Shown piece by piece: positions 10,346 through 35,137 of a stretch of DNA of 56,699 nt. The stretch lies in NCBI GenBank assembly GCA_021788015.1, contig JAJYLD010000008.1, forward strand, positions 1 to 56,699. The letters run 5' to 3'. Within the stretch, counting starts at the first letter, position 1, and every line of letters starts with the position of its first letter. The notes beneath the pieces were generated by a model. The model saw only the letters and a list, made by a program, of their open reading frames with translations. It was not told where the DNA came from and searched no databases. The DNA comes from a bacterium (lineage in GTDB: Bacteria > Patescibacteriota > Patescibacteriia > Patescibacteriales > JAKAJF01). The translations under genes and the position numbers were made by a program.

Positions 10346-10759
10346 TTATTTTTTCACTTTTAATTTATTTAAAAACTTTTCTCCCGCTTTTATCATCTCA
10401 AGTCTCTTTTTATCAGTATTGTCGTCATAACCAACCAAATGCAAAAGACCGTGCATCAGTATGAAAGCGAGTTCATATTTCGCGCGATGACCTTCTTTTT
10501 TTGCCTGCCTTTCGATCTGGGCGTAATCGATAATGATCTCTCCTAAAAATTTTTCTTCTCCGGAAAAAGTCAAAACGTCGGTGGGTTTGTCTGTCTTTCT
10601 ATAGGTCTTGTTAAGCTTACGCATGGCCGCGTCCCCCACTATCCCTATCGAAACTTCGTAAGTTGTTTTTTTATATTTCCTCAAAAACTCTTCGGTTACT
10701 TTTTTAACAAAATCAAAATCGACCTTGCTCTTCGTGGTATTATTAATTTCTATTTTCAT
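10346..10759 (-). CDS. ybeY: Endoribonuclease YbeY
   Basis: LMHGLLHLVGYDD (Hx3Hx5-type zinc motif). Confidence 0.92.
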   Translation of the reverse strand: MKIEINNTTKSKVDFDFVKKVTEEFLRKYKKTTYEVSIGIVGDAAMRKLNKTYRKTDKPTDVLTFSGEEKFLGEIIIDYAQIERQAKKEGHRAKYELAFILMHGLLHLVGYDDNTDKKRLEMIKAGEKFLNKLKVKK

Positions 10760-33147: not shown

Positions 33148-33693
33148 ATGAGAATTATTCTCGGTCTCGGCAATCCGGGCGAAAAATATAAAATCACCCG
33201 CCATAACGTCGGCTTTACGGTTTTGGACAAGCTTGCCGAAGAGTTCGATTCGGCATGGGAAAACAATAAAAAATTCAAAGCGGAAATCGCAATGACGCCC
33301 CTTATCAAGGAAGGCGAGGGAGGATTTGTTTTGGCCAAACCGCAAACTTTTATGAATCTTTCCGGCGATTCGGCGCAAAAAATATTAAACTTTTATAAAA
33401 TTAAGGAAAATGAACTTCCTGAAAAGCTTACGGTAATTCACGATGATTTGGACATCGAATTCGGTAAATTTAAAATCTCCGTCAACCGCGCGAGCGCCGG
33501 CCATAACGGCGTGCAGTCGATTATCGACAAAATCGGGACAAAAAATTTTAAACGCGTGAGAGTGGGAATTAAAACGGCGGAACGCGAAAAAATTCCGGCC
33601 GAAAAATTCGTTTTGGGAAAATTTAAAAAAAAGGAATTGGGGATTCTGGAACCGCTGATTGCAAAAATAATCGAAGAAATAAAAAGGGATTAA
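33148..33693 (+). CDS. pth: Peptidyl-tRNA hydrolase
   Basis: MRIILGLGNPGEKYKITRHNVGF, KPQTFMNLSG, IHDDLDI, GHNGVQSI. Confidence 0.96.
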   Translation: MRIILGLGNPGEKYKITRHNVGFTVLDKLAEEFDSAWENNKKFKAEIAMTPLIKEGEGGFVLAKPQTFMNLSGDSAQKILNFYKIKENELPEKLTVIHDDLDIEFGKFKISVNRASAGHNGVQSIIDKIGTKNFKRVRVGIKTAEREKIPAEKFVLGKFKKKELGILEPLIAKIIEEIKRD

Positions 33694-33719
33694 GAAACTC
33701 TTAATCCGCGCTAAATGCA

Positions 33720-33980
33720 AAATCATGCCTAGGAGACAAGAATAATCTCGTTTAAGATTCGCGGTTCGACCAAGGAGGGTAGGTCTCGCCGAAATCACTC
33801 CTAGGCAAGATTCCATATTCAGATTTTAAAAACAGATAGTATTCGGGTTACTACTTGTCTTTAGGGGACATTTGAGTATAAATGGATAAGGAGGAAGATC
33901 CACTTACGAAATCAACGCCCCATGACAAGTAGAAATCTGAATGCTATCTGCAATCGTAAACATCCTATCACACGGATTTT
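33720..33980 (+). ncRNA. Candidate structured ncRNA with two SD-like hairpin loops (unknown family)
   Basis: Domain 1 stem TGCCTAGGAG/CTCCTAGGCA; domain 2 stems CAGATAGTATTC/GAATGCTATCTG and CTACTTGTC/GACAAGTAG; loops AAGGAGGGTA and AAGGAGGAAG. Confidence 0.65.
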
Positions 33981-34033
33981 TTATTGTCAAGGGTATTATG
34001 ACTTAGGAAAAATTACTAAAGTTAGTTAAAATC

Positions 34034-35137
34034 ATGGAAAAAAATCAAAAAAATCTAAAATTTTTCGTAGCCTTGGGTCATTTCCCAAAATTCGGTCCGG
34101 CTCGGCTCAAAAAATTAAAAAAATTTTTTCCAGATCCGGAATCGGCGTTTAACGCGGACGCGAAAACTCTGGTCAAGTCCGGAATTGAAGAAAATATCGC
34201 CAATGAATTCATTTCCGCTCGCACGAGCATCAATCCGGACAAAATTTTCGATTGGCTTCTTAAAGAAAACATAAAAGTTTCAACTTTGGAAGATCGCGCG
34301 TATCCGAAACTTTTAAAAGAAATTTTTGATCCGCCCCAAATTCTTTATTATAAAGGCGCTTTCGATGAAAACGAAGAGTTTAATTTGGCCGTGGTCGGAA
34401 CAAGAAAATTTACTCCCTACGGCCAAAGAGTCACGGAAGAAATCACAAAAAATCTTGCGCAAAACAATCTCACGATCGTAAGCGGACTGGCCTTGGGCAT
34501 CGACGCTCTCGCTCATTACGCCGCCCTGGAGGGAGGAGGAAGGACGCTCGCCGTTTTGGGTTCCGGTTTGGACAGAGAAAATATTTATCCCGCTCAAAAC
34601 CGTCTTCTGGCGGAAAGAATAATCAAAGAGGGCGGCGCGATTATTTCCGAATTCCCCTTGGGCACCGCTCCTCTGCGCTTTAATTTCCCCCAAAGAAACC
34701 GCATCGTTTCCGGCATGTCTCTCGGCACCTTGGTGATCGAAGCCGATGAAAAATCAGGCGCTTTGATTACGGCCCGGTTCGCTCTCGAACAAAACCGGGA
34801 AGTTTTTGCCGTTCCAGGAAATATTTATTCGAATGTTTCTCGCGGCACCAATTTTCTGATCAAGGAGGGGGCGAAGCTGGTCGCCAAGGCGGATGACATA
34901 ATCGAGGCCTTGAATCTTAAGCAGGTGCACACGTTTCTGGACAATAAAAAAATAATTCCCGAATCGAAGGAAGAAGAACTTATTTTATCTTTTATTCGCG
35001 AGGAACCCAAGCATGTTAACGAGCTTGTCCGCCTGACAAGACTTGACACAAGCAGAATAAATAGTACACTGGCAATTATGGAAATGAAAGGAATGGCGCG
35101 AAATTTAGGCAATATGCAGTATGTCGCGGCCAGATAA
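34034..35137 (+). CDS. dprA: DNA processing protein DprA
   Basis: VVGTRKFTPYGQRVTEE, SGLALGIDALAHYAAL, FPQRNRIVSGMSLGTLVIEA, C-terminal winged helix. Confidence 0.96.
   Translation: MEKNQKNLKFFVALGHFPKFGPARLKKLKKFFPDPESAFNADAKTLVKSGIEENIANEFISARTSINPDKIFDWLLKENIKVSTLEDRAYPKLLKEIFDPPQILYYKGAFDENEEFNLAVVGTRKFTPYGQRVTEEITKNLAQNNLTIVSGLALGIDALAHYAALEGGGRTLAVLGSGLDRENIYPAQNRLLAERIIKEGGAIISEFPLGTAPLRFNFPQRNRIVSGMSLGTLVIEADEKSGALITARFALEQNREVFAVPGNIYSNVSRGTNFLIKEGAKLVAKADDIIEALNLKQVHTFLDNKKIIPESKEEELILSFIREEPKHVNELVRLTRLDTSRINSTLAIMEMKGMARNLGNMQYVAAR

Follow-up and report, generated by a model that had tools for sequence, protein, structure and literature searches.

A putative small RNA family with anti-Shine-Dalgarno loops, encoded beside pth and broadly conserved in Patescibacteria

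The window, i.e. the whole stretch of 56,699 nt analysed here, belongs to a genome of 1.13 Mb in 13 contigs. The small size and gene context of this genome suggest that it is of Patescibacteria type, and the nearest named DprA relatives found are MAGs with 47-49% identity, one of them from Moraniibacteriota (Patescibacteria group). Between pth (peptidyl-tRNA hydrolase) and dprA, both confirmed as such by Pfam (Table 1), no credible coding frame overlaps the interval, and the structures that a sequence-only reading had drawn there on the plus strand are present: the stems TGCCTAGGAG/CTCCTAGGCA and the element GACC-AAGGAGGGTA-GGTC lie within 33726-33807, and a long second hairpin ends in the loop AAGGAGGAAG. 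The folding is as strong as that reading held, plus-strand positions 33724-33955 reaching -79.6 kcal/mol compared with -50.0 kcal/mol for dinucleotide shuffles (z -6.7). The heptamer AAGGAGG is not rare (6 occurrences in the window, 5.1 expected); what counts is its placement in two loops and not the heptamer itself. Comparison with homologous loci indicates that the interval is a stand-alone noncoding RNA gene of about 275 nt, predicted to be read from the minus strand (33955->33680), on which the two loops carry anti-Shine-Dalgarno (aSD) motifs. The predicted minus-strand transcript has the order 5'-D2-D1-terminator, is 276 nt long and folds at -99 kcal/mol (z -8.5).

Table 1. Features of the pth-dprA locus, in window coordinates and in the order of the minus strand
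Feature	Position	Strand	Description
dprA	34034-35137	+	PF02481; divergent neighbour, outside the RNA
Promoter of the RNA gene	33962-33990	-	TTGACA-17-TGATAGGAT; extended -10, sigma70-type
-35 element	33990-33985	-	TTGACA; spacer 17
Extended -10 element	ends at 33962	-	TG-A-TAGGAT
D2	33833-33951	-	Long interrupted hairpin; GCAGATAGC.../...CTATCTG, then CTACTTGTC/GACAAGTAG; 10-nt apical loop CUUCCUCCUU
D2 apical loop	33888-33897	-	Minus CUUCCUCCUU, plus AAGGAGGAAG; aSD motif
D1	33720-33813	-	Three-way junction; 17-bp P1 closes it; aSD loop on P3; short hairpin P2
D1 apical loop	33772-33781	-	Minus UACCCUCCUU, plus AAGGAGGGTA; aSD motif
Intrinsic terminator	33680-33707	-	GGATTAAGAGTTTCTTAATCC (hairpin 33707-33687), then CTTTTTATTT, at the end of the RNA gene; overlaps the last pth codons
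pth	33148-33693	+	PF01195; convergent neighbour, outside the RNA

Base-pair asymmetry, folding energies, promoters and model scores, as independent lines, agree on the minus strand for the RNA. G.U pairs are tolerated in a true helix and read as A.C when the wrong strand is taken; in helix alignments built on the plus strand, A.C cells (G.U on the minus strand) stood against G.U cells at 74:18 in D1 and 51:10 in D2, i.e. 125 to 28 over both domains. The minus-strand fold was the more stable one in 66 of 73 domains (40/45 for D1, 26/28 for D2), its free energy being lower on average by 9 kcal/mol for D1 and 11 kcal/mol for D2. In the window's own genome D1 folds at -34.5 kcal/mol on the minus strand compared with -29.2 kcal/mol on the plus strand, and D2 is slightly more stable on the plus strand, which may explain why the sequence-only reading, correct in describing a structured noncoding RNA with special loops (absent from Rfam and conserved, as the searches show), assigned it to the plus strand. 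A covariance model of D1 rebuilt on the minus strand (R3) scored the window at 86.1 bits on the minus and 20.0 bits on the plus strand, and its search of the own genome gave no second match of at least 16 bits.

The putative promoter in the window has 10/12 matches and a TG before the -10 element, and places the predicted transcription start at ~33955, with the first stem of D2 beginning four bases on. A scan covering the 110 bases that flank the RNA on its right in 44 homologous loci revealed a promoter at its minus-strand 5' end in 35 of them (z>2 vs shuffles) and in none of the 44 on the plus strand; the form TTGACA-16/17-TGnTAnnnT recurred on the minus strand in nearly every locus scanned. 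Terminator-like hairpins to the left of D1 were found in 20/44 loci on the minus and 18/44 on the plus strand, where shuffles led us to expect 4.0. These counts do not discriminate between the strands; most of the terminators are bidirectional and serve pth too, and across loci they thus mark the end of the gene and not its strand.

Homologues of D1 carry CCUCCU in the apical loop in 52 of 52 sequences and CCCUCCU in 51, and the corresponding columns 48-54 form the sole continuous run at 98-100% identity in an alignment whose mean column identity is 68%. Around this invariant block the helices covary: compensatory change was seen in 30 of 31 pairs of D1 (52 sequences), and doubly changed cells numbered 318, compared with 48-78 after pairing partners had been shifted by one to three columns (slid controls). 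The P2 arm is longer in other orders than in the home order. Pairing of the loop AGGAGG with CUCCU of P1, as given by RNAalifold on the plus strand, was considered and set aside, being uninformative within the order and involving a CUCC in P1 that is unconserved in other orders. D2 shows CCUCCUU in all 27 homologues, and covariation in 15 of 21 pairs, where doubly changed cells number 72 compared with 4-17 in the slid controls; its loop has an unpaired probability of 1.0, and the loops of both domains are predicted to be fully open. D2 was aligned with covariance models, an alignment by MAFFT only having misaligned it so that RNAalifold gave no structure. Because the covariation alignments come from fitting to the models, they lean towards the proposed structure; neither the slid controls nor the evidence from promoters depends on this fit. 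The homologue models anticipated by the sequence-only reading bore it out in this respect, with stems that covary and CCUCCU(U) loops that are kept.

A blastn search across the order revealed six further copies between pth and dprA. The covariance model R1, made of D1 from six sequences, found D1 in at least 45 of the 111 genomes of the order, and R3 found the RNA in at least 47 of the 111 and in at least 37 of 59 genera. Beyond the order, R1 matched at least seven more genomes from other orders within the class, and R3 at least six from other classes within the phylum; all these counts are lower bounds, 11 to 38 candidates having been scored per genome. The copies from the six genomes of other classes all have a long P1 and CCCUCCU or CCCCUCCU in an apical loop; in most cases a recognisable promoter precedes and a terminator follows the RNA, and most lie convergent to pth. 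A diverged copy with AUCCUCCUUG was seen in the MAG AUK017 (L147) at 24 bits. The RNA is single-copy per genome and usually convergent to pth, with dprA following on the plus strand in most loci, and it mostly lies between the two genes. The D2 model R2 detected D2 beside D1 in 28 of 45 loci, with one additional doubtful match; given that D2 is absent from several lineages, D1 appears to be the core of the RNA. The D1 model also scored D2 weakly on the same strand in L029, L030, L032 and L035 (24-27 bits), which hints at a possible relation of the two domains by duplication. G009 (L070), which alone in the order has csrA, gave no copy, although its genus mates carry the RNA.

The RNA has no match to a known Rfam family. 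Only one tRNA reached its family threshold in an Rfam scan of the window, a permissive scan of the locus returned eukaryotic noise alone, and no Rfam bacterial small RNA matched at E<=10 in the locus or, in 20 homologous loci, along the RNA. Housekeeping RNAs were also rejected as candidates. The tmRNA of the genome lies elsewhere (L121:16066-16453; 139.5 bits in Rfam, missed by ARAGORN), as does its class A RNase P RNA (L081:8284-8982), which with 699 nt, compared with a model of 367 positions, has a large insertion of ~300 nt. RF00169 and RF01854 of the SRP RNA do not match the locus, its loops are free of GGAA and AGCA, and neither domain has the domain IV signature; in the own genome as a whole, RF00169, RF01854 and a loose domain-IV motif scan found no SRP RNA. 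Scans of the own genome also gave a tRNA match of 126 nt at L079:1520-1645 that ARAGORN missed, its length probably reflecting an insertion or intron in the tRNA, and three aptamers of the c-di-GMP-II-GAG riboswitch, of which two lie in tandem (L072:10388-10480 and 10545-10633; L088:6867-6963). A search of the literature, covering few subscription papers, found no description of small RNAs in Patescibacteria/CPR. Judged by comparative sequence analysis, which establishes the RNA gene, its strand, its structure, the invariance of its loops and its conservation, the locus represents a broadly conserved, previously undescribed family of noncoding RNAs with aSD loops.

An exposed and invariant aSD, stems that drift, one or two loops of equivalent kind and a gene that stands alone are all features of the alphaproteobacterial aSD-loop small RNAs, and they led us to propose, with a probability of roughly 60%, that the RNA acts in trans and independently of Hfq by occluding Shine-Dalgarno (SD) sequences. 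The transcript, of ~275 nt or less in genomes that have D1 but no D2, would form one rigid domain or two, with CCUCC(U) displayed in the 10-nt loop at the tip of each as a copy of the 3' tail of 16S rRNA. These loops would bind AGGAGG-type SD sequences of mRNAs through the pairing that 30S subunits themselves employ, and with the SD bound, initiation would be blocked or the mRNA exposed to decay. The 16S rRNA of the own genome ends in GGATCACCTCCTTT, whose anti-SD the RNA loops match. Hfq was found in none of the 111 genomes of the order, in a search in which control genomes gave matches, and CsrA (PF02599) in one of the 111. We infer that the aSD-loop RNA is transcribed in vivo, pairs with the SDs of mRNAs and represses them. 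Of the ~1035 genes given by a crude caller in the own genome, about 68 have a strong, suitably spaced AGGAGG SD and over half lack an SD; given that strong SDs are confined to a minority of genes, a selective regulon is possible. We also asked whether the base that follows AGGAGG at start codons is matched to the loops; its counts (A 25, G 23, C 11, T 9) agree with the genome background, indicating that the mRNAs show no sign of adaptation to the loops.

It also speaks against SD occlusion that a rigid three-way junction with long conserved stems exceeds the complexity of known aSD small RNAs, which could mean that the RNA has a protein partner. In a rival reading in which the C-rich loops of the same minus-strand RNA dock a protein and not mRNA, the RNA would be a ribonucleoprotein or a protein-titrating RNA. 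Its deep conservation, single copy and elaborate architecture speak for this, and two near-identical loops in many genomes would suit a dimeric protein. We nevertheless think protein docking unlikely, since the invariant block is exactly the aSD core, which base pairing accounts for with no new protein, and since no candidate protein was identified, Hfq being absent and CsrA nearly so. The shared CCUCCUU would also fit a decoy of the 16S 3' tail that rivals the 30S subunit in binding a factor which reads the tail, or an RNA pairing with one dedicated partner RNA. The GAUCA upstream of CCUCCUU in the 16S tail is read by tail-binding factors such as Era; the identity with the loops ends at CCUCCUU, this GAUCA is missing from them, and the base before CCUCCU in D1 is C and not A, all of which makes a decoy improbable.

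The sequence-only reading had offered an SD mimic, a plus-strand RNA whose SD-like AAGGAGG loops engage the 16S 3' end, and the plus strand does fold well in the own genome, D2 even slightly better; given the G.U/A.C asymmetry, energies, promoters and model scores in favour of the minus strand, this proposal fails, CCUCCUU loops being unable to pair with the 16S 3' end, and we consider it very improbable. Equally hard to credit is a cis-regulatory leader of the dprA-topA operon. Although dprA comes next on the plus strand in most loci, the RNA is on the wrong strand for it, and L040, L056, L058, L061 and L067 have neither pth nor dprA in the fetched flanks, yet all have minus-strand promoter signals. 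The other proposal of that reading, a CsrA/RsmA sponge, was based on AAGGA in the plus-strand loops and has next to no likelihood: the loops on the true strand are free of GGA, and csrA, the gene that it asked for, is confined to a single genome of the order (G009), itself without a match to the RNA.

Preferring SD occlusion, we note that the RNA would predict which mRNAs, namely those led by AGGAGG, fall under its control. RNA regulation has been little described in Patescibacteria; a copy of the 16S tail that is invariant across several classes gives a concrete handle on it, and the covariance model enables annotation of the RNA in published genomes. A wider and rather doubtful extension is that this is an ancestral Patescibacteria noncoding RNA, one per genome and present across classes, that competes globally with the ribosome for SDs without Hfq or CsrA; if true, it would be a main regulator of these reduced genomes at the post-transcriptional level and would set SD-led genes apart from those that lack an SD.

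The closest known systems are the alpha-r14/NfeR1 'cuckoo' RNAs (SmelA075, SmelA099), of which NfeR1 represses ntrB and transporter mRNAs at the ribosome-binding site with redundant aSD loops and no Hfq (PMC10746234; also PMC3927594). Like the RNA described here, they come from genes of the trans-encoded small RNA type and have hairpins with an ultraconserved aSD loop on drifting stems (PMC10746234, PMC3927594). Whereas cuckoo RNAs display CCUCCUCCC on three or four simple hairpins, the RNA here has CCCUCCU on a three-way junction and UCCUCCUU on a long interrupted hairpin, and it differs in phylum, in having no Rfam match and in its neighbours. It shares with them the unpaired aSD loop on variable stems and the free-standing gene, whose own promoter and terminator are seen here as sequence signals; it lacks CCUCCUCCC in at least three hairpin loops, having CCCUCCU (D1) and CCUCCUU (D2) in one or two loops per RNA, and does not match a curated covariance model. 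Since it departs from the cuckoo motif and architecture, we assign it to a new family within a functional kind that is already known.

The C-rich small RNAs of staphylococci and RNAIII pair with SD sequences through UCCC loops. These C-rich, SD-pairing loops resemble those described here, but their motif is shorter, their structures are unrelated and they are restricted to their lineage; RNAIII is also named in PMC3927594. AbcR1 and AbcR2 silence transporter and metabolic mRNAs with aSD-like motifs (PMC10746234); they fall outside the Hfq-independent class of NfeR1 and have no architecture in common with the RNA here. The CsrB/RsmZ sponges likewise repeat identical motifs in their loops, but these are GGA loops that depend on CsrA, and the RNA here has neither, its transcribed strand carrying CCUCC and not GGA and its own genome having no CsrA. 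The RNA also suggests that aSD-loop small RNAs arose here independently of the alphaproteobacterial ones.
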